Shown here: in pieces, positions 3,452-28,601 of the stretch
Layout of the letters: each line of letters starts with the position of its first letter
Position numbering within the stretch: the stretch's first letter is position 1
Source: Bacillota bacterium
GTDB lineage: Bacteria; Bacillota; Clostridia; Saccharofermentanales; Fastidiosipilaceae
Assembly (NCBI GenBank): GCA_030055235.1
Contig: JASGUW010000152.1
Location: 1 to 39,068 of the forward strand
DNA: 39,068 nt
Direction: 5' to 3'
Position numbers and translations under genes: made by a program
The notes under the pieces: model-generated
The model's input: only the letters and a program-made list of their open reading frames with translations
What the model was told of the DNA's origin: nothing
Database searches by the model: none

Positions 3452-4828
3452 TCAAAGAAACTCTTTGAACGCGATACGCAGTTTGCCGCTTCGGGTACGC
3501 TGGAGAGGCTTATCCACCAGTTCAATCCGTACGGAATTCAGCCCGTTGCCCTCAAGAAACTTCCGGATACCGGAAAGAAGCTTCTGCTCTGTTTCGATTC
3601 GGTCATATCCCTGCAGAATTGAAGCTCTTATCTCTATGGCATCCGGGGCCCGCTGGATCACCTGACAGTGATCACATCCGGAAAACTCGTCCGTACACAC
3701 CAGAAACAGAAATCCCGGAATGCGTACCGTTGTACCGTTGCGATCAAATTCCAGAACGTCTTCCGCGCGGCCTTCTATTTCGATCCAGGGGGTATTCAGA
3801 CCGCAGCCACAGATCTCATCATGCAGGATCACACTGTCGGACATATGGTATCGAATCACCGGCTGCACCAGACAGGCTAGATTGGTCATCAGAATACCTT
3901 CGGATTTGACGCCGCTGGGCACGGGATTCCCTTCCCAATTTACTGGTTCCACGATGACCCAGTCGCTGTTTACGTGCAGATGACCGTTGGGACAGAGCAT
4001 GGCAACCTCGCCGCCTTCGGTACTGCAGTAATTGTCATTTACCGGGCAGCCGAAAGCCTCGCTGATGAATTTTCTGTTTTCCTCAGGCAACTTTTCTGCA
4101 GAACAGCCGATGATCTTTGGATGAATACTAAGCCTGCCCGCTTCCTGCTCAAAGGCCAGGGTATAGATCACGGAAGGATAGCAGCCAATGACATCGGGCT
4201 GAAACTCGTTAAGCTTACGGATCATTTCCTCCAGAGGCGTAAGCGTTGACAAAAACAGCGTACGGTCCTCCATCCCACGGGCCTTGTAGCTTCTACGTAA
4301 GCGTTCAAAGGATAGATAGGAGGAATTCATGCCGCCCGGCGATATGATGGCGCACTGTTTCAGATCCGGCTTATCGAGTCCCTTCACATCCTTCAGAAGG
4401 GGGCCGCCAAAATAGCGCTGCGCCATCAATGCATCATGAATGGCAAGGTGTCGGCTGTCACGGATGATGCGCAGCGGCTTCGCCGTAGTCCCGGAGGTGC
4501 TGATGACCCTGTACTTCCCCAGAAAAGGAGTGAACAGGTTTTCAAAATCAGCCAGATATTCATCCACCTTTTCGCTCGTGATCTCGGGGTCCGAGACCCA
4601 GCGATTAAACTGCTGCGTCATCTCTTCCCGGGTGGAGATGGGAATATCCGCCAGGCCATAATTCTCCGGAAGATCCGCGTATTTTTCCTTCAGGTAAGGG
4701 GAATGTTCCCGCGCATAATCCACCAGGAAATGAAGGCGCTGCTGCGCCAGAGCCTCAATCTCTTCCCTACCCCGCTGATCGGCACCGGCCACCAGAGCAG
4801 CCGCCTCTTTTGCATCAATAATTTCCAT
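3452..4828 (-). CDS. PaaK-like adenylate-forming ligase
   Basis: A 458-residue ANL-superfamily enzyme of the phenylacetate-CoA ligase / CapK type. It should activate a carboxylic acid as the acyl-adenylate and then pass it to CoA or another thiol. Visible motifs are the phosphate-binding STSGTTAKP (residues 110-118), CSTEGGE near 270 in place of the YGxTE motif, GRAED near 355 and the C-terminal catalytic-lysine motif SGKLR near 450. The start has AGGAG eight bases upstream of ATG. It is the last gene of the minus-strand NRPS operon, 58 nt after the MATE gene, so it probably prepares or loads an acyl or aryl building block, or tailors the product. The substrate cannot be read from sequence. 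Confidence 0.82.
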   Translation of the reverse strand: MEIIDAKEAAALVAGADQRGREEIEALAQQRLHFLVDYAREHSPYLKEKYADLPENYGLADIPISTREEMTQQFNRWVSDPEITSEKVDEYLADFENLFTPFLGKYRVISTSGTTAKPLRIIRDSRHLAIHDALMAQRYFGGPLLKDVKGLDKPDLKQCAIISPGGMNSSYLSFERLRRSYKARGMEDRTLFLSTLTPLEEMIRKLNEFQPDVIGCYPSVIYTLAFEQEAGRLSIHPKIIGCSAEKLPEENRKFISEAFGCPVNDNYCSTEGGEVAMLCPNGHLHVNSDWVIVEPVNWEGNPVPSGVKSEGILMTNLACLVQPVIRYHMSDSVILHDEICGCGLNTPWIEIEGRAEDVLEFDRNGTTVRIPGFLFLVCTDEFSGCDHCQVIQRAPDAIEIRASILQGYDRIETEQKLLSGIRKFLEGNGLNSVRIELVDKPLQRTRSGKLRIAFKEFL

Positions 4829-4886
4829 ATCATTTTCTCCTGCGTTTCATGGTTTTTCTATGAGCGGAAGATATTCTTTTATCACT

Positions 4887-9600: not shown

Positions 9601-12600
9601 CGACCGGCCTGGCAGGAAGCCCAGGGCTGAAGGAATTCACCAGCGCCAGCTGCTCCGGGGTAGAGATCGAAAGGCTGCCGACAGGCGCGTCCGGATTGCG
9701 GACCAGCATTCCGGCGGTATGGGCGATACATGCTGCCAGCGTGCGCATGGTAGAGGCGTTAAACACGGCATCGTCGTATTCCGCTTCCACGATAAAGTCC
9801 GTATCGTTCTCCTGAATGTTGACGGAAATGGGGAATTTGGCGCTGTTCAGGCTGAGAGGGTGCATGGTAACAGGACTGTCGCCCACTTTATAGTCAGAAA
9901 CGACACCACCCTGATAGGCATAGAGCATCTGTGAATTGTAGCCGTAATCCGACGCCGCCTGCAGGTAGGAATAGGCCTGATGTGCCAGCACTTCATTCAT
10001 CTCCTGCTGCACGCCAGCCAGGTAAGAGGCAGCTGTCACAGCCGGGTTAATGTCCATAACCATGGGCAGTGTTTTGACCAGCATGCCGAAATTGCGCTGC
10101 ACATGAGCACCCTCACGGCCGTTACTGATGGCAGCAATCCGCACACTCTGTGCGGAGGCAAAGCGCCCGGAAACCAGCATGCTGGCAGCCAGGAAGAGAT
10201 TGGAGGCCGTCAGGCCCATGCCCTTGATGGCCTGCTCCACGCTGCTTTTGGCGATTGTGGTTTTCACTGACCTGGGCACACCGGGGACATCACTCTTTTT
10301 GTCAGCAGGGAACAAGGTGGCGCCTTCTCCATCCGCCAGCCGCTGCTGGAAGAAGGCCTTATCCTCCGCCCAGGCACTGCCCCTGGTCTTTTCCTGCTCC
10401 AGCAGCGCCAGGTCAAAGCTGGTGAAGGTTTCCGCCTCAATCCGGGCACCTTCGTAAGCTGCGGCCAGATCATTGAGGAAAATGTCCATGGAGCCGCCAT
10501 CAAAAATCATGTGGTGGAAATCCGCCAGCAGCTTCACAGCATCAGGCAGCACGCAGATTTCCATGCGGAACAGCGCGCCTTCAAAGAAGGAGAAGGGGCG
10601 CACGAACGCGGCCCTGCGGCTGGCATATTCTTCCGCCGTGCAGCGGATCACCGCTATCTCTGCCTCAGCGTCGTCCAGGCGCAGCTGTACCGGCTCATTG
10701 TCGCGCATGGAGAAGCGGGTCTTGATGTAGGGATGGGCCTCAATCACCTGCAGGATGGCGCTGTGCAGTTTTTCCGGCTCGACGCCGCTGCCAAAGGACA
10801 GCTCAACAGGAATGTTATACACCAGTGTGCCGGGATCCTTGACACAGGCGAAATACAGGCCCATCTGGTTCTGTGTCAGCGGATACCAGGCCTTTTTCTC
10901 ATAGGTCCTGATCTGATAGTCACTGCTGTCTGCCATGAGACGAACGATTTTTTCGATGGTCTTTTCCCGCATGAGATCGGCAGTGCGCAAGCTTTTTCCG
11001 GTGTTTTCCGTGATCCGTGCCGCGGCCTTGATGGCAGAGAGAGAGTTCAATCCTGCATACATCAGGTCCGTGGTCACGCCGAAGTCTTCATGCTTAAGCA
11101 CTGACGCCACTGCGTCAAAAATGGCTTTCTCTTCTTCATTTCTGGGCGCGACAATCTCATCCGCCTGCAGCTGAATCCGCGGCAGTTCACGGCGATTGAC
11201 CTTGCCGTTCTGGTTCAGCGGAATGCGCTCGATCTGCATGGTGGCAGAGGGCACCATGTAGGCGGGCAGCTCATCCTCAATGAAGGCATTCATGGCCTTG
11301 ATATCCACCGCTTTGTCGGAAACTACATAGGCCACCACACGCTTGCCGCCGCCGGCATCATCCTGGGCGATGACCGCTGCATCCTTGATACCTTCAAACG
11401 CGCGGATGCGGCCCTCAATCTCTGTCAGTTCCACGCGGAAACCGCGGATCTTCACCTGGAAGTCACGCCGGCCAACGAAGTCGATCGCACCGTCCGGCAG
11501 GAAGCGCACCACATCGCCGCTCTTATACACCCGTTCGTAGAGCGGCTCGTCGGTGAAGGGATTACGAATGAATTTCTCTGCGGTCAGGTCAGGGCGGTTC
11601 AGATAGCCGTCCGCTACCTGTACGCCGGAAATATAGAGTTCCCCGGGAACACCCACAGGCGCCAGCCGGCCCCGTCCATCCACCACATAGAGAGCCGTGT
11701 TGTAGGTGGCCCTGCCGATGGGGACACGGTCATAGAGCTTATCGACCTTCTGTTTGGTACAGGCAATCGCACATTCTGTGGGGCCGTAGAGATTAAACAG
11801 GGCATATTCCGGCGGATCCAGCGGCACCAGCGCTTCGCCACCCACCGACAGGGCGCGCAGTGTGGGAACGTAGATGCTTTCGGCAAACTGCCTGCCGAGC
11901 TGTGTGGTCAAAAAGGCCACGGTGATTTCGTTCTCTTCAAAATAGCTGCGAATGCCCGGCAGATCCAGACGCAATTCCTCCGGCAGGATATGGAGGCAGG
12001 CCCCCCTGAGCAGGGTGGGATACAAATCCATCATGTGCGCATCAAAGCCGAAACTGGCATAGGCAGTAATACTGTCGCTTTCGTCAAGCTCATAGCTGTC
12101 CGCATAGAAGTAAAGGTAATTCGCCATATTGGCGTTGGTAAGCATGACGCCCTTGGGCTTGCCGGTGGTGCCGGAGGTGTAGAGCAGGATGAAGAGATCC
12201 TCCGGACGCGACAGATCTTCCAGCGCTTCTGCAGCAGGAAGTGTGTTCAAACTGGCGCTGTCCACAACAAAGCCGGAATACTCCGGTACACGGTCCAGCA
12301 GGTCGCTGTCGCAGATCAGCAGCTTAGCATTCGCGTCCTCGAGCATATACTGCAGGCGATCGGCAGGATAGCCGGGATCAAGGGGCAGATAAGCCGCACC
12401 GGTTTTTAATGCAGCCAGTGCGCCTACCGGCATCATCAGACCCCGCTTGACCATGATGCCCACAACGCTGCCGCGATCGGCGCCCCCCTGCCGCAGATGG
12501 ACAGCCAGACGTTCAGTCAGCTCATCCAGCTGGCGATAACTCAAAGTCTGCTTCCCGAATACGACCGCCGTGTTGTCGGGAGTCCTGGCTGCCTGTTCCC

Positions 12601-15600
12601 TGAAGAGAGAAATAATCGTTCTGCCACCCCAGCCTGCCACGGTTTTACCCGGGAAATCGCAGAGAATCTCCTGTCTCTGACGCTCGGGCAGTTCGACAAG
12701 ATCGACCAGCATCTGGTTATCACCGTCGTCACAGCAGCGCTTCAGAGTGACGAGGAACTGTTCTAAAAAGTTCTCCACAACCGCAACGTCATAGAGCTCG
12801 CGGGAATAAGAGAGCTTGAACTTAAAATCGGGGCCTTCCGGCACCGCCTCCAGCACCAGATCCATCTGCAGTGCCTGACCCTTAACAGGAATGTATTGGG
12901 CTCTGGCGCCTTCGATGGCGGGCAGAGGCGGCTCCTGCAGATAGTTAAAAATCACATCAAAGACCGGAGAACGGGAAGCGTTGCGGTCCGGAGCCAGCAT
13001 GGGCACCAGACGTTCGAACGGATAGGTCTGATTGGCCTGTACACCCCGGATGGTCTGTGCCGTTCTGAGGAGATAATCCTTTAACAGCATATCCCCAACG
13101 GGCTTCAGGCGCACCGGCAGGGTGTTGACAAACATGCCCAGCATTTTCCTCTGTTCCTTCAGGGTTCGGCCGCTCATGGCTGTACCCACCACGACGTCCT
13201 CGCTGCCACAATACTTGGCCAGGGTCATGCCGAGCACGCCAAACAGGAAACTATACTGCGTCACACCAAGGCGACTGGCCGCTTCTTTGATGGGGGCTCC
13301 GGACCAGGTGGCCACCAGGTCCTCATCGGCTTCCGGCAGCACGGAGGGCCGCTTCACATGGGTCGGCATTTCGTTTTCCGGAACACCGTCGGCAAACATG
13401 TCCTTGAAGAACGCTTCCTGTCCGGTAAGATCGTCCTGTTCCGCCTGCCAGACAGCGAAATCCAGATAATCGAAGACCAGATCCGGCAGCGTCTCCCCCT
13501 GGTAAAGCCGGAACAGCTCGTCTACAAACGTGGGCCAGCCGGAGCCGTCCATGATGATATGGTGGAAACAAAAATGCAGTGTACAAAGGCCGGGTACATG
13601 TTCAAAGACCTGGCAGCGCAGAAGCGGCGCCTTGGCCAGATCAAAAGGATGGTTCTCTCTTTCCAGGATGCCTGGCACTTCTTCCCTGGCGCAGCTGCGG
13701 CGCACGATGGGAATGTCAAGTTCATCCAGAATGCGGTGTACATATTCTCCCTTTTCCAGAGGATAGTAACTGCGCAGCACCGCATGGCGCTTAAGCATGG
13801 CGCCGAGCGCCTCTTCCAGGCGGTCGACATCCAGTTCGCCTTTGATCTCCAGGGCCAGGAAATTGATGTTGTAGGAAGTGGACTCAGGATTCATGCCCTG
13901 TTCCACGACCATCTGCCGCTCGGCAAAGGTCAGCGGCCAGCTATCGCGTTGTTCCGCTTTGCTCAGGCCGGCTTTCACCCGCGCAGCCAGCTGCTGCGGA
14001 GTGCCCAGTGAGAGAATGTCGCTGGCAGACAGATTCATTCCCTCCAGTTCTGCCTGAACCTTCGCCGCCAAGATGGAATCACCGCCGATCAGGTTGAAGT
14101 CATCCAGCGTACCGACACGGTCAAGGCCCAGCACACGCTCGAAGGCCGCACAAATGGCAGCCTCCCGGTCATTTTCCGGAGCCTGATAGGCAGAGCGGAA
14201 CCTGGCCGCGTCCGGCGGCAGAATGCTCTGGCGGTCGACCTTACCGTTGGCATTTAGTGGCAGTTTATCCACCTGCTGCAGGAAGGCAGGCATCATATAG
14301 GCCGGAAGGAAGCCGCGAATGGCCGCCGTGACGGCTTCCGGCGCCAGGGTTTCTGCGGAGGTGTAGACACAGAACAGACTGGTTTCCCCATTGGCATTTA
14401 TGAAGCCCTTCACTACGGCCTGATCCGCTGAGGTCAGACGGACAATCGTGGCCTCGATCTCACCGGGTTCCACGCGGTAGCCGCGCACCTTGAGCATCCA
14501 GTCCTTTCGCTGCACATATTCGAGCTGCCCGTCTTTATTGATCCGTCCGATGTCATTGGTCCTGAACAAAATTTTGTCATCCTCATCCTCTGACCAGGGA
14601 TTCGGGATGAAGCGTTCTGCTGTCTGTTCCGGAAGATTCAGATAGCCCAGTGCCACCTGTCCTGTGACACAGATTTCTCCCTCTTCTCCGTCCGGGAGCC
14701 GCTTGTTTTCGTCATCCAGAATGTATACCCGGCTGCCGGCATAGGCCTGGCCGATGGGCGTGATATCGGGATAGGCGCGGTCGATCGGAAAGCTCGTGAG
14801 CGGGCCGCAGGTTTCGCTCGAGCCATAGACATTAAAGAGACGCACCCTGTCACTGTAGATATTCGATACGCGGTCGGAGCCGATGACCATACTGGAGAGC
14901 TGATTCTCCAGCTGCGGCAGGATGAGGCGCGCCAGCTGCGGGGGAGCGAAGGTCGTGGTGATGCCATGCTGACGTATGTAGTCTACAAGTGCCCCGGCAT
15001 CCTGGCGCAGATTGTCGCCGGCAATATGGATGGTGCCGCCCAGCGAAAGCGGCGTGAGGATTTCCAGCACCACGGCAATGAAGGAGAAAGAGGCAACGGA
15101 CAAAAACGTGTCATGCTCCGTGCGGCTTAAGGTATTGCCACGAAGCGCCATGGAGAGAGCCCGCTGTGAATTGACGACACCCTTGGGATTGCCCGTAGAG
15201 CCGGAGGTATACACAACGATCGCCGGGTCATCCTTTTGGCCTTCAGGGGATGAGACAATCTTAGCTGCGGCAGGCAGTTGTTCCAGCCACTTGAGATCGA
15301 TCACCAGTTTGGCCCGGGTATCGCGAATCACGAAATCAATGCGCTCCCTGGGATACCCCTCTTCCGTGACACAGACAGCCGCACCGGACTTCATTACACC
15401 GAGAAGCGCAGCAACGGCTTCCCTGCAGCGGGGCAGCCGGATGACAACAATATCACCGCGTCCAATGTCATTTGCCATCAGGCAAGAGGCGATACGACTG
15501 CTTTCGTCATCCAGCCCGGCATAACTGAGGGATTCCCCTTCAAAAACAAGGGCGGGCTTATCGGCATATTCCCGAGCGGTACGGGCAAACAGATCCAGAA

Positions 15601-15604
15601 ACAT
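6644..15604 (-). CDS. Three-module nonribosomal peptide synthetase with terminal reductase
   Basis: A 2986-residue NRPS. The start at 15604 was chosen for AAGGAGT just upstream; an ATG at 15631 lacks one. Approximate domain order: A1 1-450 (YTSGSTGNPKG near 135, LNANGKVDR), T1 (GGDSIL near 508), C1 560-980 (HHIIMDG near 683), A2 1010-1440 (YTSGTTGKPKG near 1145, NLYGPTE), T2 (GLNSLS near 1519), C2 1570-1960 (HHMIFDG near 1700), A3 1990-2440 (YTSGSTGKPKG near 2146, NTYGPTE), T3 (GGTSLL near 2526), R 2600-2986 (TGASGFLG near 2609, YARSK near 2778). There is no epimerase or thioesterase. A terminal reductase releases the chain with NAD(P)H as an aldehyde or alcohol. My hand-derived specificity codes are A1 IALFISVGPK, A2 DAMFSGLIAK and A3 DMKNMGTVSK. 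A1 lacks Asp235. Confidence 0.93.
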   Translation of the reverse strand: MFLDLFARTAREYADKPALVFEGESLSYAGLDDESSRIASCLMANDIGRGDIVVIRLPRCREAVAALLGVMKSGAAVCVTEEGYPRERIDFVIRDTRAKLVIDLKWLEQLPAAAKIVSSPEGQKDDPAIVVYTSGSTGNPKGVVNSQRALSMALRGNTLSRTEHDTFLSVASFSFIAVVLEILTPLSLGGTIHIAGDNLRQDAGALVDYIRQHGITTTFAPPQLARLILPQLENQLSSMVIGSDRVSNIYSDRVRLFNVYGSSETCGPLTSFPIDRAYPDITPIGQAYAGSRVYILDDENKRLPDGEEGEICVTGQVALGYLNLPEQTAERFIPNPWSEDEDDKILFRTNDIGRINKDGQLEYVQRKDWMLKVRGYRVEPGEIEATIVRLTSADQAVVKGFINANGETSLFCVYTSAETLAPEAVTAAIRGFLPAYMMPAFLQQVDKLPLNANGKVDRQSILPPDAARFRSAYQAPENDREAAICAAFERVLGLDRVGTLDDFNLIGGDSILAAKVQAELEGMNLSASDILSLGTPQQLAARVKAGLSKAEQRDSWPLTFAERQMVVEQGMNPESTSYNINFLALEIKGELDVDRLEEALGAMLKRHAVLRSYYPLEKGEYVHRILDELDIPIVRRSCAREEVPGILERENHPFDLAKAPLLRCQVFEHVPGLCTLHFCFHHIIMDGSGWPTFVDELFRLYQGETLPDLVFDYLDFAVWQAEQDDLTGQEAFFKDMFADGVPENEMPTHVKRPSVLPEADEDLVATWSGAPIKEAASRLGVTQYSFLFGVLGMTLAKYCGSEDVVVGTAMSGRTLKEQRKMLGMFVNTLPVRLKPVGDMLLKDYLLRTAQTIRGVQANQTYPFERLVPMLAPDRNASRSPVFDVIFNYLQEPPLPAIEGARAQYIPVKGQALQMDLVLEAVPEGPDFKFKLSYSRELYDVAVVENFLEQFLVTLKRCCDDGDNQMLVDLVELPERQRQEILCDFPGKTVAGWGGRTIISLFREQAARTPDNTAVVFGKQTLSYRQLDELTERLAVHLRQGGADRGSVVGIMVKRGLMMPVGALAALKTGAAYLPLDPGYPADRLQYMLEDANAKLLICDSDLLDRVPEYSGFVVDSASLNTLPAAEALEDLSRPEDLFILLYTSGTTGKPKGVMLTNANMANYLYFYADSYELDESDSITAYASFGFDAHMMDLYPTLLRGACLHILPEELRLDLPGIRSYFEENEITVAFLTTQLGRQFAESIYVPTLRALSVGGEALVPLDPPEYALFNLYGPTECAIACTKQKVDKLYDRVPIGRATYNTALYVVDGRGRLAPVGVPGELYISGVQVADGYLNRPDLTAEKFIRNPFTDEPLYERVYKSGDVVRFLPDGAIDFVGRRDFQVKIRGFRVELTEIEGRIRAFEGIKDAAVIAQDDAGGGKRVVAYVVSDKAVDIKAMNAFIEDELPAYMVPSATMQIERIPLNQNGKVNRRELPRIQLQADEIVAPRNEEEKAIFDAVASVLKHEDFGVTTDLMYAGLNSLSAIKAAARITENTGKSLRTADLMREKTIEKIVRLMADSSDYQIRTYEKKAWYPLTQNQMGLYFACVKDPGTLVYNIPVELSFGSGVEPEKLHSAILQVIEAHPYIKTRFSMRDNEPVQLRLDDAEAEIAVIRCTAEEYASRRAAFVRPFSFFEGALFRMEICVLPDAVKLLADFHHMIFDGGSMDIFLNDLAAAYEGARIEAETFTSFDLALLEQEKTRGSAWAEDKAFFQQRLADGEGATLFPADKKSDVPGVPRSVKTTIAKSSVEQAIKGMGLTASNLFLAASMLVSGRFASAQSVRIAAISNGREGAHVQRNFGMLVKTLPMVMDINPAVTAASYLAGVQQEMNEVLAHQAYSYLQAASDYGYNSQMLYAYQGGVVSDYKVGDSPVTMHPLSLNSAKFPISVNIQENDTDFIVEAEYDDAVFNASTMRTLAACIAHTAGMLVRNPDAPVGSLSISTPEQLALVNSFSPGLPARPVGGLHQLFERWAGQTPDAVALMASDAALSFAELNRRANQLAHSLLALGVKHEDRVAFMLGRDSRILVSMLGIIKAGCAYIPVDPDYPRERVEHVLEDSQARFILTDGPSALTNSLDINALLANENTRNPNLPVRQEQLCYIIYTSGSTGKPKGVMLTHGGIINYVLDDEQNRHVRALVEHRCTMCSVTTVSFDMFLKEAFTTVMNGLTLVLADDEEARNPDQLAALFARTGANAFNATPSRMLQYMELPAMKEALAACRVIMAGGEAYPPVLYRKLREVTDAVLINTYGPTEITVSSNGKLLTSDVVSIGAPLRGVVEQVMDIYGQPLPAGFIGELWISGYGVARGYFGNPEMTAERFVEYDGLRWYKSGDLARWTDDGEIVVLGRNDGQIKLRGLRIELGEIENTLNAVADVRSCAVLVRRLHGQEHLCAYYTATRELPAEELREVLLQTLTKYMVPTAYLQLDEMPLTPNGKIDRKRLPDARLMQRQEYQAPANEAEQTYCDIFASILHLERVGATDNFFDLGGTSLLVTQVTIDAAQKGIALSYGDVFANPSPRELAAIRHQAEPSPAKDEISDYDYAPIQQLLEENTIAALRDGRLRELGNVCITGASGFLGIHVLRAYLQMEKGTAFCVVRGRKNLSAEKRLKSMLAYYFGGDTLKINGKPFLDAMDELFSTRIVVIDGSITDASLYQELARLPVDTYINCAANVKHFSAGTDIEDINYGGVKLALDFCRQKKCRFVQVSTASIAGMSINGQPDETLLLGERMLYFGQDLSNKYARSKFLAERAVLESALNGLDVKIMRVCNLMARDADGEFQINFATNNFLGRLKAYSLIGRIPYEAMGMNTEFAPIDFTAVAVLLLAKTPEACRVFHPYNDHQIFLGDAIEVMRRRGMDIIPCEAEEYESSFGEAMRDPAKARYLNSLIAYSEHGKRIVPIKSSNSYTSQVLLRQGFKWPITSDAYLDRFFAMMEGLGFFDQDSEIGME

Positions 15605-15762
15605 AAAAATACTCCTTCTGCTATATGTCACGGTATTCCGCGTTGCAGGCGCACAGGCGTTCCTCCATCAGGACGAACAAGATCCTTCAATTATGCAAAA
15701 TCCATCTGTCTTCCGGCATTGATTTCTTTCCTGGCAGACATAAAGACATCTCTTCCCTGACT

Positions 15763-16386
15763 TCATCTGGACAGCAATTCGTTTCTTGAAAGCCAAACAG
15801 GCATCTCCGCTCTGCCGGGATGTTCTGCGGCAGTGCAAATGATATGAGCATCCAGGGCAAGCCAGTGGAGATACCAGCTCTGACCCCCCACAATATTGGC
15901 AAAGCCCTCCTCCGGACGAATCTCAAAACGCTCCGGCGGCAGATGAAATCCCAGTCCCAGCGCCTTCATAATGGCTTCCTTACCCGTCCACAGGCGGAAA
16001 AAGGCTTCGTCCGTTGCCTGACGGCTGAGCCAGCTCTGCTCCACGGCAGTAAAGACCTTTTTTGCCACAGTTTGTGAATACGGGGTAATGAGTTCCACAT
16101 CCACACCTACCGGCTGTTCATCAGCAAGCAGCACAACCATGTTACCGGAATGGGAAAGGTTAAAACAGGGACCGTTCGGCAGAATCGGCTTGCCAAACGA
16201 GGATACGGTCATGGAGGAAACAGCGTCCTCTCCAAAGACACTCTGCAGCATGAGTCCGGCTGTAAGGCAACGTACCCGATCCTCCAGCCTGCGATACCTG
16301 TAGACACGGTCTTGGCGCTTTGCATCCAATAAGGAAATTCCGGGAAGATCGAACAGACCCCTTATATCACTTATATAAAGTTTCAT
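15763..16386 (-). CDS. Sfp-type 4'-phosphopantetheinyl transferase
   Basis: The enzyme transfers phosphopantetheine from CoA to the Ser of carrier domains and should activate T1-T3 of the adjacent NRPS. Visible motifs are LSHS (near residue 78), the Mg-binding GVDVE (near 94) and FRLWTGKEAIMKALG (near 135). With the start at 16386 (MKLYISDIRG) the protein has 207 residues, close to the family norm. An in-frame ATG at 16407 lies only two bases after AAGGAGG, and the frame extends further to 16512; the alignable part begins at MKLY. It is the first gene of the minus-strand operon, with 158 nt to the NRPS start codon and no convincing terminator between them. Confidence 0.9.
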   Translation of the reverse strand: MKLYISDIRGLFDLPGISLLDAKRQDRVYRYRRLEDRVRCLTAGLMLQSVFGEDAVSSMTVSSFGKPILPNGPCFNLSHSGNMVVLLADEQPVGVDVELITPYSQTVAKKVFTAVEQSWLSRQATDEAFFRLWTGKEAIMKALGLGFHLPPERFEIRPEEGFANIVGGQSWYLHWLALDAHIICTAAEHPGRAEMPVWLSRNELLSR

Positions 16387-16436
16387 GCACTTAATCCCCC
16401 GGAACATTTCCTCCTTCTGCCGACAGTACAAAATAG

Positions 16437-16464
16437 CATTTATCTGCGAAATACGTTTTGTCAA
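16437..16464 (-). promoter_or_regulatory. Candidate promoter of the NRPS operon
   Basis: On the minus strand a perfect TTGACA (16464-16459) lies about 50-80 nt upstream of the Sfp-type gene. A poor -10-like TAAATG follows after 16 bases. The -35 is good and the -10 is weak, so this is a candidate only; an activator could compensate. Confidence 0.35.
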
Positions 16465-16632
16465 CACAAAATCGCAGCAGCTGCCGGTATCTTCTTCTCC
16501 TCCCGTCTTCATACATGCTCATTGAGCTCAACAACAGGTAAGAGGCGAAAGCCCGAAGACGGCTGCTTTGCAAGCCTCCCCGGGCCTCATGCCTCAACAG
16601 ATCCGAACGTCAGGAATCACGTCGGTCTTTCC

Positions 16633-18444
16633 TTAATAAAAAAGGTCCATGAACGAATAGAAGCTTTCTGGATCTTCTCCCGAAACAAGCAGCTTTCCGC
16701 TTGCTACGGCGTCTTCAGGACTGAGACTGGTCAGAACCACCTGCTTCCAGGTCAGCTGGTCGGTCACGATTTCAAACTGGCTCTCACCCGCAGCCGGGGG
16801 ATTGATCTCCAGGATGCCCTTACGCACGTTCAATATGTAGTGATCCGGCAGCTCCGGATCCACGACGTCAGTCAGTTGCAGGCTGACAAGGATATCCGTC
16901 TCCAGCGATTTCGCTGCATTGAGATTGACGGCCAGGATACGATGCAGGGTATCCATGGGCATCAGCTCAACAAAGCGATCGTCGATATTCGCATAGACAA
17001 ACTCCGGATGACCGAACGGGTAGACCCTTCTGGCCTGGTCCGTCAGCAACAGATAATCGGAGAGAAGCATGTTGCGCGCCTGCGAATTCATCGTGCTCTC
17101 TGCCAGGACCAGCATAGCCGCCTTCTTGGTCTCAAACGCCACAGCGTTATCCGGGTCCAGCAGAAGCGCATCGTCGGCGAGCCTTAGTGCCCATTCCGGG
17201 TTGATCTCCAGAGCCGCCTGGGCTTTCGTAGCCAGATCACCATCGCCTTCAGCCAGGAAGGCCGACATCTCTGCCTCACTCTGCGTCGTCTGTGGGAACA
17301 GATCCCTTACTTCGCCGGTGTAGTAACCGCGGTAATAGCGGAAGATGTGGACGATGTTCCATTCTTTCGATCCATAAATCTCCTGCAGATAGGGGCTGGA
17401 GGCAAGATGGGGCGGCAGCTCGATCAGGTCCATCATCTCCCCTGCTGTGTAGCTTCTGTTCATGTAGTAGAGTGTCTGGTCATTGACGAACTGGATCGCA
17501 TCGCTGAAGTTGGTGAGGTATTGCCTGACCTCTTCTTTTCCGCTGTTGATGGGATTGGGACCATGGATCGTCACCAGGTATTCGGGATTGAGTCCCCTGG
17601 CAATCTTCAGGGTATTGACGTAATCCAGCGGATCTCTCAGGCGGCTGCCCCGCGTGGTCGAGATAGCCGGAAAGGCCTCGTAGACGACAGCGATCTGGAT
17701 CAGGACTTCTTTTTGCGGCAACCACACCAGAAGGACATCCGTTGTCTCACCGGCCACAGGAATGAGATCCACATCAACACCGGCGATCGTCAGGCTCGTC
17801 TCTTCCTTAATGCTCCTTGTCGGCGCCAGGAAGCCTGTCTGCCCGGTCGTCTGCGTCCCGGCGAGGCCGTAGCCGGCAAACCAGCCTTCCCCGTCCTGGA
17901 CGGGTGCGTCCTGGAACATGATTCCAGTCATCTTGATGCCGCCCTCGACGCGCGACGGATAGACCGGGCCAAACCACTCACTGAAGAGGTTGGCAAGCAG
18001 GCTTTCGTGACCGATGATCTCTGTCTGCTCGTCGGCAAAGACAGAGGCGCCGTTGATATGGCAGTCATGGTGATGGGTGTAGATGATTGCCTTGACAGGT
18101 TCCCTGTCAAAAATATTGTCCAGGCTGGCATTAAAGGCATCCTTGACCATCTGAGCCGCGGGAATGCTCTCCCCGGGATCTACGACAATCAAGCCGTCGC
18201 TGCCCTCAATAAGCACAGGATTGTCGCGGTTATAGCCTCTGGCCACCCAGACACCGTCTGTTACTTGTAACACGGCGGCGGGAAAGAACTCCTCATACGT
18301 GGCCAGGAGCGTCGGATGGACGGGTACTGCCTCCGGATCATAGGGCTCCGGCACTGCCTGAGCTTCTTCTGCCGCTACGTAGCCAACTGTCCCGGCCAGA
18401 ACCAGGATGATCACGAGAGCAAAAACTTGGAATTTCGTTTTCAT
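16633..18444 (-). CDS. Secreted alkyl-sulfatase-like metallo-beta-lactamase-fold protein
   Basis: A 603-residue protein with a signal peptide (hydrophobic residues 6-24, likely cleavage after VAA), so it should act outside the membrane. Residues 55-300 are a metallo-beta-lactamase fold. The region after about 300 resembles the dimerisation domain of SDS-type alkylsulfatases (PYLQEIYGSKEWN) and the tail the SCP2-like domain. Such enzymes hydrolyse sulfate esters at a two-zinc centre. Here the HxHxDH motif reads HHHDCH (124-129), so Cys128 sits where Asp is expected, and the later acidic GDN-type ligand position reads QIA (250-252). His294 is kept. The start at 18444 is supported by GGGGAG seven bases upstream; the longer frame to 18486 lacks this. 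It is a single gene with its own divergent promoter region. Activity on sulfate esters is unproven. Confidence 0.8.
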   Translation of the reverse strand: MKTKFQVFALVIILVLAGTVGYVAAEEAQAVPEPYDPEAVPVHPTLLATYEEFFPAAVLQVTDGVWVARGYNRDNPVLIEGSDGLIVVDPGESIPAAQMVKDAFNASLDNIFDREPVKAIIYTHHHDCHINGASVFADEQTEIIGHESLLANLFSEWFGPVYPSRVEGGIKMTGIMFQDAPVQDGEGWFAGYGLAGTQTTGQTGFLAPTRSIKEETSLTIAGVDVDLIPVAGETTDVLLVWLPQKEVLIQIAVVYEAFPAISTTRGSRLRDPLDYVNTLKIARGLNPEYLVTIHGPNPINSGKEEVRQYLTNFSDAIQFVNDQTLYYMNRSYTAGEMMDLIELPPHLASSPYLQEIYGSKEWNIVHIFRYYRGYYTGEVRDLFPQTTQSEAEMSAFLAEGDGDLATKAQAALEINPEWALRLADDALLLDPDNAVAFETKKAAMLVLAESTMNSQARNMLLSDYLLLTDQARRVYPFGHPEFVYANIDDRFVELMPMDTLHRILAVNLNAAKSLETDILVSLQLTDVVDPELPDHYILNVRKGILEINPPAAGESQFEIVTDQLTWKQVVLTSLSPEDAVASGKLLVSGEDPESFYSFMDLFY

Positions 18445-18551
18445 TGCATTTCTCCCCAGAGCCTCTCCTCTGTTGCCTGCTGACAAAGCCTGCTGCAGCG
18501 ATGTACAGACTGGCCTTTACCGTTCTATTAATAGTAAATAAAAAGCCCTTT

Positions 18552-18585
18552 AAACAAATACCCGTTTTCCGGCAAAATAGTCTAG
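18552..18585 (-). promoter_or_regulatory. Shared 34-nt element, copy 1
   Basis: Read on the minus strand, this block matches the plus-strand block at 22662-22695 in 28 of 34 positions, with identical cores ACTATTTT and CGGAAAACGGGT at the same spacing. It lies about 108 nt upstream of the alkyl-sulfatase-like start codon and points toward it. A regulator site or a conserved promoter element is likely; the binding protein is unknown. Confidence 0.6.
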
Positions 18586-18630
18586 AAAAAGCTTTCCATG
18601 CCTGCTGCAGCGAAAGAGCAGGGCTTTTTC
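18585..18630 (+). terminator. Terminator-like hairpin before the phosphatase promoter
   Basis: An outer stem GAAAAAGC (18585-18592) / GCTTTTTC (18623-18630) encloses an inner stem CCTGCT (18601-18606) / AGCAGG (18617-18622). The T-run makes it terminator-like on the plus strand. No plus-strand gene lies close upstream, so it may act as insulation before the -10 at 18654, or simply be a relic. Confidence 0.35.
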
Positions 18631-18659
18631 TTCATCCGCAGCTTATTCCACGGTATAAT
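18631..18659 (+). promoter_or_regulatory. Candidate promoter of the phosphatase-STAS operon
   Basis: A perfect -10 TATAAT lies at 18654-18659. The best -35 at 17-bp spacing is TTCATC (18631-18636), which is poor. It is about 145 nt upstream of the chosen start codon. Confidence 0.45.
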
Positions 18660-18804
18660 TTTTGCAAGGCTGGTTTCCTCCCTGAACCTGGTGCTGTCGC
18701 TGGAGTCATGGCAACTGACAGAAACGCAGCCCGTTTCACGACCAGCGCGATGTACGCCTTCTCATGGCAGGCGATTCAACTCTGACAGGAAAGGGCGTCG
18801 CTTT

Positions 18805-20757
18805 ATGAAACACTCCATTGCCAGATCCCTGTTCATTCTGATCCTCCTTATAAGCCTCCTGACGATCGGGATCACAACGGCCATGAGTGTCTATGAAGCC
18901 AATGTGTTCGTGCGGGAAACCGTGGTTTCCAGGGCCAGCAATGCCGCGCAGGTGATTGCTGTCCTCTACGACGGTGTACTTCCTGATACTGTACTGGCCG
19001 ACGAGCAGGTCGGCACGGTGATGTCGCAGACCTTTGAGATCCTGATCCGAAGCTTTCAGCTGGAGTATCTCTACATCATGATTCCGGACACCGATTCCGG
19101 GCAGATCACCTATGTCTGTGTCGAGGGAAATGAAGAAAATCGCGAATCTGCCTGGAGCCTGCCGCCAGGCACGATCAGGAAACGGGACATTTCCCCTGAG
19201 CTGGCAGCCGTCATGCATGGCGACACGAAGCACATCACCCGTGAAACAGACAATCAATATGGGCATGTGTTTTCGGCCTATGTACCGCTTCTTGATGATG
19301 ACGGATTGGTGACGGCGGTTGTCGGAGCTGACATCAGAGCCGATGATCTGTCAAGTCGCTTTGAGAGAGTGCTCATCTGGAAGGTTGTCTTCTTTCTGGG
19401 CCTGGTGATCGTCGTCTCCTTCGTTTTGTACCATGTGCTGAAAAAGAAGGTCATCAAACCTGCAGAGACCATCAGCGCCAGCATGAGGGCCTTTGGCGAA
19501 GATGACAATTACGATGTCAAGCCGCTTCAAATCCAGGGAGACAATGAATTCAGCCATATCGGAATGGCATTCAACCACATGGCGGCGAATACGCGTGACT
19601 ATATCGCCCGTATCAAGGCCTATACGGAACTGCAGAACCGACAGGAGTATGAGTTTCGCGTTGCCTCCGAGATACAGCAGGGCTTTCTGCCTGAACCACA
19701 GCATGCAGACGAATACTCGGAAATCCGCGCGCTCATGCTGCCTGCCAGGAATGTAGGCGGTGACTTCTATGATTATTTCGCAGACCGCGGTCATATGGTG
19801 CTCGTTGTCGCAGATGTTTCGGGGAAGGGCCTCAGCGGAGCCATATTCATGGCCAGCGTCATCACCCTGATCCGGGGCTTTGTCAAGCAGGGCCTGACGC
19901 CGGGCGAAGTGCTGGAAGCCGTGAATGCCGAACTGGAACACTCCAACCCGAACATGATGTTTATCACGGTCTTTCTGGCGTTTGCCGACCCGAAGGCGGG
20001 AGTGTTCCGCTATGCCAACGCCGGGCACAATCCCCCCTATCTCCTGCATGAGGGGAAGTTCGCGCCCCTTTCCTCTGCCGGCGGAGTCCCGCTGGGGCTT
20101 TTCTCCGATGAAAGATACCAGACTGCCGAGCTGGTCTTGCCGCTCGACAGCACATTCTTTCTCTATACCGACGGCGTCAGTGAAGCCGTTGACCTGAATG
20201 CGAAGTTCTTTGGGCTCGAGCGGCTAGAAAGAATTCTGGCGGAGACAGATGGCGCCAACACGGTGCTGCAGGTCAAAAACGAACTGGAGCATTTTACGGC
20301 CGGCAGCGAACAAAGCGATGACATCACCATGCTGTCCTTCACCTCCCTTTCGGCGAGGCTCACCCTGCCGGCCGAGCTGTCGGCACTTGGCAGCCTGCAC
20401 AACTGGATCCGTACGGATGACAGGATCCCCGAAGAGATCAAGAAGCGCCTCTGCCTGATAGCGGAAGAGTGCTTTGTCAATATCTGTTCCTATGCCTATG
20501 AGCCGCCGGGGGGGACCGTGATCTGCCATAAACAGAGCTGGGCAGACGGAACGGTTGCCATGCAGTTCACGGACAGCGGCAGGCCCTTTGACCAGACAAA
20601 AGATACAATCAGGGCGGAAGATTACAATCCGGATGAGCAAATCGGCGGACTGGGGAGGCTGATCTTTCAATCTCTGGCGGACTGCTGCCGCTATGTGAAT
20701 CTGGACGGAAATAATGTATTGCTTATCATTATGTATGCCAAGGAGGAGCACAGATGA
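18805..20757 (+). CDS. Membrane SpoIIE/RsbU-type phosphatase with C-terminal RsbW-like domain
   Basis: A 650-residue signalling protein. A membrane segment at about 6-27 and a second at 188-211 flank an extracytoplasmic sensor region. A HAMP-like linker comes next, then a PP2C/SpoIIE Ser/Thr phosphatase with its metal residues intact (GGDFYDYF near 318, ADVSGKG, YTDGVSEA, SDDITM). The last ~130 residues are a GHKL anti-sigma kinase-like domain with a proper N-box (EECFVN near 554). It should dephosphorylate a STAS protein in response to an external cue, and the fused kinase-like domain could rephosphorylate it or bind it. Start at 18805 begins the first membrane helix; AAGGG lies upstream, and the longer frame from 18598 gives an implausible N-terminus. 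The next gene overlaps it by 4 nt. Confidence 0.88.
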   Translation: MKHSIARSLFILILLISLLTIGITTAMSVYEANVFVRETVVSRASNAAQVIAVLYDGVLPDTVLADEQVGTVMSQTFEILIRSFQLEYLYIMIPDTDSGQITYVCVEGNEENRESAWSLPPGTIRKRDISPELAAVMHGDTKHITRETDNQYGHVFSAYVPLLDDDGLVTAVVGADIRADDLSSRFERVLIWKVVFFLGLVIVVSFVLYHVLKKKVIKPAETISASMRAFGEDDNYDVKPLQIQGDNEFSHIGMAFNHMAANTRDYIARIKAYTELQNRQEYEFRVASEIQQGFLPEPQHADEYSEIRALMLPARNVGGDFYDYFADRGHMVLVVADVSGKGLSGAIFMASVITLIRGFVKQGLTPGEVLEAVNAELEHSNPNMMFITVFLAFADPKAGVFRYANAGHNPPYLLHEGKFAPLSSAGGVPLGLFSDERYQTAELVLPLDSTFFLYTDGVSEAVDLNAKFFGLERLERILAETDGANTVLQVKNELEHFTAGSEQSDDITMLSFTSLSARLTLPAELSALGSLHNWIRTDDRIPEEIKKRLCLIAEECFVNICSYAYEPPGGTVICHKQSWADGTVAMQFTDSGRPFDQTKDTIRAEDYNPDEQIGGLGRLIFQSLADCCRYVNLDGNNVLLIIMYAKEEHR

Positions 20758-21071
20758 CCATTCGAGTAGAAAAGAGCAATCGTGACTACATCATCCATAC
20801 GGCAGGCTGGATGAACACCGAGTCGGCACCTGCCCTGGGAGCGGAGATGGAGAAGATCACGGAAGCGGAAACGATTGTGCTCGATTTCAGGGAACTGGAG
20901 TACATTTCCTCCTCCGGACTCCGGCAGGTCGTCTCCGCCTATAAAAAGGCCATGACTCTGGAGGCGGACTTCTCCGTCATCAACGTGGGCAGTGATGTGA
21001 TGGAGATCTTCCGGCTGACCAATCTCGACAGCAGGATTCACATTCTGCCCTTGGGCGAAGAGGTCAACTAG
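20754..21071 (+). CDS. STAS-domain anti-sigma factor antagonist
   Basis: A 105-residue single-domain SpoIIAA/RsbV-like protein. The motif YISSSGLRQ places the likely phosphorylated residue at Ser53. When unphosphorylated, such proteins bind the GHKL anti-sigma kinase and release its target. Its ATG overlaps the upstream stop (ATGA) and AAGGAGG lies seven bases before it, so both proteins should be made together. The upstream phosphatase is the natural partner. No sigma factor gene is nearby, so the final target is unknown. Confidence 0.9.
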   Translation: MTIRVEKSNRDYIIHTAGWMNTESAPALGAEMEKITEAETIVLDFRELEYISSSGLRQVVSAYKKAMTLEADFSVINVGSDVMEIFRLTNLDSRIHILPLGEEVN

Positions 21072-21393
21072 AAAAAAGCTATACCCCGCTGACGTCAGGA
21101 CGCTTCGGGCTCCGGAAAAATTGGACAAGGGTACAGCGCCAGCTGGCAGCTGCCAGACAGCAGAACCTTGGGGCTTTCGCTTTCTGAAGGACAAGCTCCA
21201 TGTCCCCTTGTTGTGGGCGCACTTGGCATAACATGCATGTGCCGGGGTGGCGACTGGCTGTGATATCGAGGAAACAGACACCCGTTCACTCCGGATCCCG
21301 GATCCGCTTGTTGTGCCCTGAAACTAAGCGGCGGGGGAATGCCAGGGTTTTCACGTGATCTCCCTTAAGTGTCCCGTCCGGCAGCCAGACGGC
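21072..21393. other. Convergent intergenic region with palindromes
   Basis: There is no credible gene in these 322 nt between convergent genes. Perfect palindromes are CTGACGTCAG (21089-21098), GCCAGCTGGC (21138-21147) and CTGGCAGCTGCCAG (21143-21156); a GGATCC repeat occurs near 21295. Their role is unclear. Confidence 0.4.
21374..21392 (+). terminator. Candidate terminator of the phosphatase-STAS operon
   Basis: An 8-bp stem CCGTCCGG/CCAGACGG (one G-U pair) with a CAG loop is followed on the plus strand by CTTATTTA. It lies at the 3' ends of the convergent phosphatase-STAS and LuxR units and overlaps close to the LuxR stop. The U-tract is imperfect. Confidence 0.4.
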
Positions 21394-22410
21394 TTATTTA
21401 CTCAGACAGTCTTTCAGATCGGTACGCTTGGTAATGCCGAGCTTTTGATAAATCACCGAAAGATAGGACTTTACCGTATTGATTGAAATGTACATGAAAT
21501 CGGCAATTTCCTGATTGGTCTTACCTTTGGCTGCCAGCATGGCCAGGGCAAATTCGTAGGGGGTCAAGAGGCTGGTCACCTGGTTGGGGGATTGCGGATT
21601 GTGAATCTTCGCCCATCCGTCTCTGAAGCGCACGACCTTTTCAGCGATCTGCCGGTACAGTTCAGGTTCCCGGTCGCGAATGTGTTTTTCCACCATTCCC
21701 TGCAAGGGTCCGTGATGCCCGATAAAGGGCTGGATGTATCCGTCCGGAATGGCCAGCTCCAGGGCATTGAGAAAGAACTGGTCGGCCAGTTCAAAACGGG
21801 ACAGACCCATGGCCGCCATGGAAGCCGCCAGATTCAGGTAGATGCTGATAATCTGATGGCGATCAGCAGCCATCAGCAGCCCAGCCTCCGCCACACCCAG
21901 TGCCTGCGCATATTCCTGCTTTAGATACAGCGCGTAAGATCGCGCGTACAGTGAAAAGAGCCGGATCCCCTCAGAACTGTCGCGGATATCTACCTGCGGC
22001 GATGGAGCAATGTCTTCGCCAAGATGAAAAAATACCGACACAACGAAACGGGAAACATCATTGAGTGCCACAACGCGCCGGTTTTCCGGATACCGCGACT
22101 TAAGCTGCAGAGTTTGAAAGTCGTTCTGGACAGCTTCGGTATTGTGCTGTGCCACGCTGATCATGACGTGGCACAGCAACGCAAGTTCACGTATTTCCGG
22201 GTGACGGCTGTTCCGGCAGCGTACAGCTGCGGCAGCGGCATCCTCATATCGTGCCTGCAAAAAGAAGTGCACCATATCCGCAACTGCGTCCTCTTCTTCA
22301 CCGGACAGCGTCAGGGCCGGATCGTCTGACGAAGTGTCGCTCAGAGACAGATTGGGAAAGAGATATTCCAGGATAAGCCTCGATCCTTCACGCTGTCGCC
22401 GGTCAAGCAT
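21394..22410 (-). CDS. LuxR-family transcriptional regulator with helical-repeat sensor region
   Basis: A 338-residue DNA-binding protein. Residues 283-338 form a LuxR/GerE helix-turn-helix (LTPYEFALAMLAAKGKTNQE, then IADFMYISINTVKSYL). Residues 40-270 are alpha-helical and TPR-like, reminiscent of the MalT superhelix, with no receiver domain and no membrane segment. A ligand or partner protein probably controls it. GGAGG nine bases upstream supports the start. It is divergent from the sulfatase-MFS genes, and a copy of the shared 34-nt element lies in the intergenic region, so it is a plausible regulator of the sulfatase genes; this is inference. Confidence 0.82.
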   Translation of the reverse strand: MLDRRQREGSRLILEYLFPNLSLSDTSSDDPALTLSGEEEDAVADMVHFFLQARYEDAAAAAVRCRNSRHPEIRELALLCHVMISVAQHNTEAVQNDFQTLQLKSRYPENRRVVALNDVSRFVVSVFFHLGEDIAPSPQVDIRDSSEGIRLFSLYARSYALYLKQEYAQALGVAEAGLLMAADRHQIISIYLNLAASMAAMGLSRFELADQFFLNALELAIPDGYIQPFIGHHGPLQGMVEKHIRDREPELYRQIAEKVVRFRDGWAKIHNPQSPNQVTSLLTPYEFALAMLAAKGKTNQEIADFMYISINTVKSYLSVIYQKLGITKRTDLKDCLSK

Positions 22411-23096
22411 AAACTCTATCCTCCAATGCCAGTTCTTCTTCTGTCGGGGTGAACCTTATCCACCGGCAAGCCCTCTTGTCCGAAACAGTTCGAGCTATGT
22501 TGCTGCCCCCCGAGCACATGTCGAAACAGCTGGAACAGGGAGTCACTACACTTGAAATACCACACTCGTACCCGTGAGCAAGTGCCGTCAAAGCAGGATT
22601 CAGTGAAAAAAGATCCCGTGCGACGCTGCACAGCTTGTGTGAACAAGCCTACAAGGAATTCCTATACTATTTTAGCGGAAAACGGGTGTTTTTTATTAAG
22701 AGCACTCCAAATAAAATAAATTATTTAAGCTAGTTTATTTGTTTCCATGCTGCAGTCATCCCCCTGGAAGCGGGCCGGCGGCAGAGCCGCAGCTGCTGCA
22801 TCCCCCTCAGACAGAGTCAGGCCATTGCGCTGGAGGGAAATGAGTTTCAAAAAGGAAAATCAGCTTCAGCCATGTGCATGGCCCCTGAGCTCACTCTAAG
22901 GCAAGACTGCTGTATTATTGTTCCAAAACAAACGATACCGAATCAATTACAAGAAACGCCGGTGAACAGACGGAAGAAACTGTGTAATACCGTTCCCATT
23001 GGCGAATGCAAGACAAAATATCACCATGTGGTTGAAAATGCCTGAAGGGCACGAAAAGCCGGCAAGTGCCCGTCTACGCTGTGAGGGAATTCAAAG
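22411..23096. other. Long divergent intergenic region
   Basis: No gene is supported in these 686 nt. They hold a perfect inverted repeat GCTTGT-GTGA-ACAAGC (22633-22648), the second copy of the shared 34-nt element, an AT-rich stretch (22690-22742) and a G+C-rich repeat-like part near 22770-22800. The sequence TGTGTAATAC near 22980 resembles an extended -10 for the sulfatase, but has no good -35. Confidence 0.4.
22662..22695 (+). promoter_or_regulatory. Shared 34-nt element, copy 2
   Basis: This block matches the minus-strand block at 18585-18552 in 28 of 34 positions. It points toward the sulfatase gene, 401 nt away, and lies about 250 nt upstream of the LuxR-type gene in reverse orientation. 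It follows directly after the GCTTGT/ACAAGC inverted repeat. Confidence 0.6.
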
Positions 23097-24569
23097 ATGA
23101 AAAGAAAACCAAATCTTGTTTACATCCTGGCAGATGACATGGGCTATGGGGATGTCAGTGCCCTGAATCCAGACGCTGCATTCAAGACAGCGAATTTTGA
23201 TGCCATGGCAGATCATGGCGTGGTCTTCACCGACGCCCATGCCTCCTCCGCCGTGTGTACTCCCTCCCGCTACAGCATTCTGACGGGCCGCTACAACTGG
23301 CGCTCAGGCCTGAAGTCCGGCGTCATAGGCGGCTTTTCCCCTCCCCTGATTGAGTCGGGGCGGGCCACGGTGGCCAGCCTCCTGAAGGATCAGGGCTATC
23401 GTACCGCCGCTGTGGGCAAGTGGCATCTGGGCATGGACTTCGCCAAAAACCCGGATTTTATAGAGCTCGAAGGTTTCGCCCACAGTCCGGGAGTCGATTA
23501 CCGCAGGCCCATCCAGAACGGCCCCAATGCTTATGGTTTTGACTATTTCTTCGGCATCAGCGCCTCACTCGATATGCCCCCTTATGCCTATATCGAAAAT
23601 GACCGTTTTACTGCCGTCCCGGATCCGGGCCGAGTTTTGGGTGGCGAGGGCAAGGAGTTTTTCAGAGAAGGCCCCTTGGCCCCCGACTTTGCTCACGAGC
23701 AGGTCCTGGATGTCCTGACGGACAGGGTGCTTGCCAAGCTGGAAGAACTGCGGGAAGAGCCGTTTTTTCTGTATTTTGCCCTGCCCGCGCCCCATACGCC
23801 CATCTTCCCTGCCCCGGCCTTCCGGGGAAAGTCCGGCACCAATGCTTACGGGGACTTTGTCCTCCACTGCGATGACGTGGTGGGCAGGGTGCGAAACAAA
23901 CTGAACGAGCTCGGCATCAGGGACAACACGCTCCTCATCTACACTTCCGACAACGGCTGTTCGCCCATGGCGGACTTCGAGGAACTCAGGGCCTATGGTC
24001 ACAATCCCAGCCATGTGTTCCGCGGGATGAAAGCCGACATTTATGAAGGCGGGCACCGGGTACCGCTGCTCATGGAATGGCCGGAGGGAATGCCCAAAGG
24101 TGAAAGCTGCGACCGCCTGGTCTGCCTTGGCGACCTCATGGCTACTCTGGCAGAGCTGCTGGAGGTCAGGCTGGCGGACAATCAGGGGGAAGACAGCGTG
24201 TCCATCCTGCCCCTGATGAAAAACCCGGAGGCAGATGAGGTCCGCAGAGACCTGGTCCATCAGAGCATTGACGGCTCCCTCTCCCTCAGGCGCGGCTGTT
24301 ACAAGCTGGCTCTTTGTCCCGGATCCGGTGGCTGGTCGAATCCCCGACCCGGTGAAGAATCCCCGGACGCACCCGCTTTTCAGCTTTTCAATCTGGCGGA
24401 GGATGTCGCGGAGCAGCAGAATCTGCTTCACCAGTTCCCGGACATGGTTCAGGAGATGAAACAGACCCTGAAAAACTACCTCTGCCGGGGGCGCAGCACG
24501 CCCGGCGCTCCCCAGGAAAGCCGGGGGGAGGCCATCTGGCAGAGCATTTCGTGGGCTAAGCAGTCCTGA
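23097..24569 (+). CDS. S1-type (formylglycine) sulfatase
   Basis: A 490-residue alkaline-phosphatase-superfamily sulfatase that hydrolyses a sulfate ester. The CTPSR motif (Cys54-Arg58) is the substrate for conversion of Cys to formylglycine. Metal ligands Asp13 and Asp14 (ADDMGYGD) and Asp285-Asn286 (SDNGC) are present, as is GKWHLG. There is no signal peptide, so it should act in the cytoplasm on an imported sulfated compound. GAGGG precedes ATG by nine bases. An MFS gene follows 262 nt downstream and may import the substrate. No maturase for the Cys modification is in this window. Confidence 0.9.
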   Translation: MKRKPNLVYILADDMGYGDVSALNPDAAFKTANFDAMADHGVVFTDAHASSAVCTPSRYSILTGRYNWRSGLKSGVIGGFSPPLIESGRATVASLLKDQGYRTAAVGKWHLGMDFAKNPDFIELEGFAHSPGVDYRRPIQNGPNAYGFDYFFGISASLDMPPYAYIENDRFTAVPDPGRVLGGEGKEFFREGPLAPDFAHEQVLDVLTDRVLAKLEELREEPFFLYFALPAPHTPIFPAPAFRGKSGTNAYGDFVLHCDDVVGRVRNKLNELGIRDNTLLIYTSDNGCSPMADFEELRAYGHNPSHVFRGMKADIYEGGHRVPLLMEWPEGMPKGESCDRLVCLGDLMATLAELLEVRLADNQGEDSVSILPLMKNPEADEVRRDLVHQSIDGSLSLRRGCYKLALCPGSGGWSNPRPGEESPDAPAFQLFNLAEDVAEQQNLLHQFPDMVQEMKQTLKNYLCRGRSTPGAPQESRGEAIWQSISWAKQS

Positions 24570-28567: not shown

Positions 28568-28601
28568 GTCTTTATTTTTAACGACAGGAGGAGACCTGGA
28601 A

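Follow-up and report, generated by a model that had tools for sequence, protein, structure and literature searches.

The SdsA alkyl sulfatase of Pseudomonas is paired with the LysR-type regulator SdsB. In Psychrobacter, the slfCHSL alkyl-sulfatase operon is controlled by SlfR, an AraC/XylS-family repressor that is relieved by lauryl aldehyde (PMC10779009). NarL activates yeaR-yoaG and ogt of E. coli, with the ogt site centred at -44.5 (PMC7419079).

The locus studied here lies in a window of 39,068 nucleotides, which is the whole stretch of DNA that was analyzed. It resembles SdsB/SdsA in that a regulator gene is paired with an SdsA-like alkyl sulfatase, but the regulator family and the phylum are different. 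Similar to SlfR/slfCHSL, a dedicated local regulator adjoins the SdsA-like gene, whereas the Psychrobacter system has no LuxR protein and another operon content. Like the NarL sites of yeaR-yoaG and ogt (PMC7419079), a proposed site for a GerE-type HTH regulator abuts the -35 position and leaves a usable -10; in contrast to them, no 7-2-7 inverted heptamer was found, the box is longer (~33 bp), and Pfam shows no receiver domain in the regulator. The gene that recurs behind the box belongs to the family of SdsA1, Pisa1, and YjcS (PDB 2cfu, 2yhe, 4pdx), of which the window's own alkyl-sulfatase-like copy represents a divergent clade, ~25% identical to the other clade and carrying THHHDCH vs. the canonical HxHxDH.

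A literature search on LuxR control of alkyl sulfatases returned only the SlfR paper, where LuxR is mentioned in a reference (PMC10779009), and the regulon proposed below is not known to have been described previously. Its regulation is otherwise of an ordinary kind, as GerE-type activators next to a -35 are well known. Alkyl-sulfatase-family enzymes, so far found under AraC or LysR regulators in Proteobacteria, would thereby be tied to a LuxR-type protein in Clostridia, and a testable regulon with an operator, a promoter geometry, and a likely regulator is offered for a group represented here by draft MAGs only.

Two copies of the box in the window

The two copies of the box and the surrounding genes are as follows.

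3452-4828, minus strand: adenylate-forming protein, the last of the same-strand run 3452..16512
4887-6644, minus strand: MATE-HATPase fusion, in the same-strand run behind the alkyl-sulfatase-like gene
6644-15631, minus strand: NRPS of 2,995 residues with three A, two C, and three PCP domains and a terminal reductase
15763-16512, minus strand: phosphopantetheinyl transferase, in the same-strand run behind the alkyl-sulfatase-like gene
16633..18444, minus strand: SdsA-like alkyl-sulfatase-like gene, metallo-beta-lactamase fold, the first gene downstream of copy 1
18531..18536, minus strand: TACTAT, predicted -10 of copy 1, 23 nt after CGGGT
18552..18585, minus strand: copy 1 of the element, CTAGACTATTTTGCCGGAAAACGGGTATTTGTTT, proposed operator over a degenerate -35, profile score 55.7 bits
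18805-21071, plus strand: SpoIIE-HATPase/STAS pair, between the two copies
21394..22410, minus strand: LuxR-type regulator and proposed activator, with a GerE HTH at residues 281-332
22622..22694, plus strand: footprint kept with the sister species G001 (73 bp, 79%), surrounding intergenic DNA not conserved
22662..22695, plus strand: copy 2 of the element, CTATACTATTTTAGCGGAAAACGGGTGTTTTTTA, profile score 47.6 bits
22712..22717, plus strand: TAAAAT, predicted -10 of copy 2, 24 nt after CGGGT
23097..24569, plus strand: type I (Cys-type) sulfatase, ~400 bp downstream of copy 2

The original prediction described a 34-nt element in two intergenic copies, and both a recount and shuffled controls bore this out. 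Copy 1 and copy 2 were identical at 28 of 34 positions in an ungapped alignment, with ACTATTTT and CGGAAAACGGGT the same in both and at a fixed spacing. This was the top score among all 34-mer pairs in the 4,090 intergenic bases used, while the best pair in 100 Markov-1 shuffles of the intergenic DNA reached at most 26/34 (mean 23.0). Even with three mismatches allowed, ACTATTTTNNCGGAAAACGGGT occurred in the window only at 18560-18581 (minus) and 22666-22687 (plus), vs. 0.00 matches expected from 100 dinucleotide shuffles.

In the whole genome (G000; 3.4 Mb in 242 contigs, 94% complete), a scan allowing up to three mismatches to a 30-nt pattern found two copies only, and with a profile built from 12 copies only copies 1 and 2 scored >15 bits. 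The 12-base core CGGAAAACGGGT alone had two further exact matches in the genome, both without the ACTATTTT block. As neither the mismatch scan nor the profile scan found scattered copies, a small repeat family, which had been considered as an alternative, was dismissed. That the genome holds just two copies would also suit a chance likeness of two AT-rich intergenic stretches, but the score was never reached in the shuffles and conserved copies are known from five other species, which already refute this explanation and leave it a negligible probability.

Copy 1 lies 108 bp upstream of the alkyl-sulfatase-like gene, and copy 2 lies between the LuxR-type gene (minus) and the type I sulfatase gene (plus). 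Thus the claim that each copy points to a sulfatase-like gene held for the orientation, whereas the two "sulfatases" proved to be unrelated enzymes, based on their different domains and motifs. The 16633-18444 protein has a metallo-beta-lactamase fold with PF14863/PF00753/PF14864 (Lactamase_B, Alkyl_sulf_dimr, and Alkyl_sulf_C all present); the 23097-24569 protein matches PF00884, and its CTPSR at residue 54 satisfies the formylglycine motif C/S-x-P-x-R. As a side observation, the THHHDCH of the former is a metal-site variant, and it is the same in the G001 and G188 orthologues.

The region 3452-21071 combines a three-module NRPS cluster with a partner-switch signalling set (an RsbW-like HATPase fused to MATE, SpoIIE-HATPase, and STAS). 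A literature search on gut NRPS clusters with SpoIIE/MATE/STAS found nothing specific.

Co-occurrence of the box, luxR and alkyl-sulfatase genes

A first pattern search with up to two mismatches in 98 related genomes identified G001, of the same genus, and G037 and G058, of another family of the order; reversed controls likewise gave three matches, so that this short pattern alone was weak. Using a 28-nt consensus with up to three mismatches, the box was found in 4 of 188 genomes of the order, namely G000, G001, G037, and G058 with two copies each, while the reversed-pattern controls on the same 188 genomes gave no match. The full-length orthologues of the LuxR-type protein (84, 71, and 67% identical to the window's) and the alkyl-sulfatase dimerisation domain PF14863, each determined by a separate search of the 188 genomes, were present in the same four. 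When one genome per species of 84,980 species was scanned with the LuxR alignment, five loci were obtained, those of G001, G037, G058, and two newly found MAGs labelled Christensenellaceae, G188 and G189. In both MAGs, luxR and an SdsA-like gene flank one copy of the box, and another copy precedes the gene of a secreted protein.

Fourteen copies were accepted, two per genome in most and at least four in G189, all genomes compared being draft MAGs or drafts (G058 copy 2 is at a contig end). In a 391-genome sample of the class, only chance-level matches were found besides G000 and G001, four genomes reaching 25-28 bits with the box profile, for which E-values are rough. Therefore, two 28-bit matches (G188:C23 and G189:C12), which lack a -10 at the expected distance and score at this chance level, were not counted, and a partial copy at G189:C25:8615 (33 bits) was left out as well. 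G189 copy 4 (25.8 bits) was accepted solely because a sulfatase relic and an NRPS operon follow it.

The 21394-22410 protein carries a C-terminal GerE HTH (PF00196, E=9.3e-12, residues 281-332), which is kept in six orthologues. No Pfam domain, whether autoinducer-binding, receiver, or MalT-type ATPase, was found in residues 1-280, and the AlphaFold prediction was all-helical with a pLDDT of 56, too poor for a fold search. The protein is the sole regulator near the box that is present in all six genomes. In five of these genomes its gene is the divergent neighbour of a copy, no more than ~0.6 kb away, and in G058 it lies 5 kb from the box. In the order it is absent where the box is absent, except for a 58-residue C-terminal fragment (76%) at a contig end of G049, in which neither PF14863 nor a box scoring >16 bits was found.

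These distributions favour the LuxR-type protein as the binder of the box, although the counts are not independent events, as the six genomes are related. The proposal that it runs the regulon was thus supported by the phyletic pattern common to box and LuxR, from which we infer the binding. Phage origin of the box and LuxR was also considered and rejected, as no LuxR relative and no exact box occurred in viral contigs.

Another conserved, unlinked regulator, for instance a global one or a response regulator of the NarL type, might instead use the box as its activator or repressor site, with luxR merely a target or neighbour. In G058 the box is flanked by a histidine kinase/response regulator pair and the alkyl-sulfatase gene, with luxR 5 kb off, and the second copies of G037 and G188 and copy 3 of G189 are far from luxR, as would be expected from this explanation. 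But a widespread regulator should leave boxes without luxR, and none was found in the order without a full-length luxR orthologue, nor any above chance level in the class sample besides G000 and G001; moreover, the kinase/response-regulator pair is not beside the box in the remaining five genomes. Control by another regulator is therefore considered unlikely, and the LuxR-type protein is preferred.

Anatomy of the box and its proposed promoter

Twelve copies aligned without gaps as (G)AATTTATAGACTWTTTTRCCGRAAAACGGGTRTTC, followed by AT-rich DNA and then TANNNT from position 49 or 50, counted from TAG. TANNNT was found 23-24 nt after CGGGT (one offset +/-1) in 13 of 13 copies, vs. at most 3 of 13 at any non-overlapping offset. 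Setting TANNNT at -12 to -7 puts the end of CGGGT near -37 and the box at ~-61 to -34 of the predicted start; the hexamers at the -35 position are poor (TTCCAA, TTCTAA, TTTGTT, TTTTTT). Based on this fixed distance, the box is placed like a class II activator site, over a degenerate -35.

Conservation is concentrated on the box. Among the 12 copies, 15 of the 16 invariant columns are inside it; between the window and G001, past the luxR-proximal part, intergenic conservation was found only at 22622-22694, and between the window and G037, of another family, the region from luxR to the next gene is conserved only at 22667-22692 (26 bp, 88%). A NarL-type 7-2-7 arrangement (TACCGAA-AA-ACGGGTA), plausible by eye, scored at chance level over the 12 copies, the dyad centred at 18.5 with a gap of 2 ranking 76 of 410 possible dyads. 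The best-scoring dyad pairs a T-tract with an A-tract about a centre at position 13.

One could suspect that the box is an extended promoter read by an alternative sigma factor, since CGGGTAT is superficially like a general-stress -10, one G037 copy has a divergent ECF-like sigma gene as its neighbour, and the window contains the SpoIIE/STAS pair. Yet the TANNNT at its fixed 23-24 nt is sigma-A-like, the ECF-like gene is beside the box in G037 only, and G188 lacks the SpoIIE gene, making such a promoter very improbable. In G188, which retains luxR, the box, and the SdsA-like gene, no SpoIIE protein and no NRPS were found.

Parts of the leader, CTGTACATC, are common to the copies, indicating that some of them arose by duplication of a single ancestral promoter and do not count independently. 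In addition, the stretch CTGTACATCNCCGAT downstream of the -10 is shared by many copies, and the box is still present at relic genes. The box could be no more than the core of a promoter-leader cassette that was duplicated along with alkyl-sulfatase and surface-protein genes and has no dedicated regulator; its conservation would then reflect descent and promoter function. However, conservation peaks upstream of the -35, beyond the usual reach of sigma-A, the leader decays (it is absent in copy 2 of the window's genome and copy 2 of L078), and the perfect co-occurrence with luxR would be left unexplained. We regard a mere cassette as improbable, more so than control by another regulator, and retain a LuxR-type operator joined to a promoter.

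Two further stretches were observed near the copies. A second conserved stretch, AATCTGTACATCNCCGATNNCGG, lies a few tens of nt past the -10 in the predicted leader of most copies (L071, L072, L073, L077, and L110; ~18490-18515 minus in the window), and in G058 it falls inside a 47-residue open frame (HIPDAGYARLEKDPVPALALNNYRYGELVTAGIIDEANVVFDSTIDL) with no Pfam match; it may be a leader element or what is left of a coding sequence. Letters like TGTGAACAA occur ~25 bp upstream of TAG in copies of the second type, i.e., at 22638-22662 in the window and in the second copies of G001, G037, G058, G188, and G189, and are absent from first-type copies. They are perhaps a second regulator site.

Target genes and the proposed regulon

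The 14 accepted copies precede six intact and two relic SdsA-like genes, five genes for secreted proteins, and one type I sulfatase gene. An intact SdsA-like gene is behind one copy per genome in all six genomes, in agreement with a conserved regulatory element upstream of alkyl-sulfatase-family genes. The targets belong to the THHHDCH clade in G000 and G001 and to the SHTHxDH clade in G037, G058, G188, and G189, the G058 target matching SdsA1 at 5.8e-161. Copy 2 of G001 is followed by 70-73% identical fragments of a decayed SdsA-like gene, and copy 4 of G189 by a relic of the 5' end of such a gene. The G001 relic (L069, ~9055-9272 minus) derives from a canonical SdsA-like gene.

Secreted or surface proteins, some of them homologous across genomes, follow the second copies of G037, G058, and G188 and two copies of G189, the G058 target being judged from its start codon and leader only. 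Among the six genomes, only the window has a type I sulfatase adjoining the box. That two sulfatase classes stand together here probably reflects a local replacement, as the box of the sister species points at a dead SdsA-like gene; an SdsA-like relic was looked for between copy 2 and the window's type I sulfatase, and none was found. Therefore, of the predicted sulfate-ester regulon, the recurrence of SdsA-like genes stood, while the type I sulfatase was particular to the window and several targets are secreted surface proteins with no visible tie to sulfate esters.

A lack of conservation in relatives that keep the genes, which would have refuted the original prediction, was not observed, as the element is kept in relatives. 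In G188, the gene orthologous to the alkyl-sulfatase-like gene of the window has no box. This gene and a third, likewise boxless alkyl-sulfatase gene of G037 show that the box does not mark all alkyl-sulfatase genes. NRPS orthologues are present in five of the six genomes, with the NRPS run behind the box and an intact or relic sulfatase-like gene in G000, G001, G037, and G189. The NRPS operon of G058 has no box, so that not all NRPS operons of this type can be served by it.

Taken together, the box is probably operator and promoter of a small regulon run by the LuxR-type protein as an activator. The 21394-22410 protein would bind the ~33-bp box TTTATAGACTWTTTTRCCGRAAAACGGGTRTTC, the right edge of which lies on the degenerate -35, and, once bound, would assist initiation by the housekeeping RNA polymerase from the TANNNT -10 located 23-24 nt past CGGGT. 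The constant member of such a regulon would be the SdsA-like alkyl-sulfatase-family gene, the others being secreted surface proteins, and in several species it would take in the NRPS operon behind the sulfatase-like gene.

In the window, the alkyl-sulfatase-like gene would be expressed from copy 1, perhaps along with the NRPS run that follows; judged from gene order and strand, the transcript starting at copy 1 may possibly include 3452..16512 as its distal part. Copy 2 is oriented towards the type I sulfatase gene and may also serve the divergent luxR. The box could thereby provide a handle for finding what switches on the peptide-synthetase cluster.

More speculatively, and with rather low confidence, the protein might represent a new LuxR-family type with an unclassified helical sensor domain and a long asymmetric operator, which senses alkyl sulfates or related surface-active sulfate esters (or the alcohols derived from them) and, in uncultured Clostridia, coordinates an SdsA-like hydrolase with proteins of the cell surface and a compound made by the NRPS.

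Minor observations were made on neighbouring genes. A Radical SAM/SPASM protein is encoded beside SdsA-like genes in two genomes (L072 11904-13040 and L141 4706-5848), and is possibly a sulfatase-maturase-like enzyme; SdsA enzymes need no formylglycine. In the window, 107-2863 encodes a protein with TOTE conflict-system primase, helicase, and PLD-like domains, likely a defence or conflict element. At 26230-31409, after two WYL/WCX-domain genes, a DUF2828/DUF7788 protein adjoins an RtcB RNA ligase, and this region looks like an RNA-repair-type cassette.
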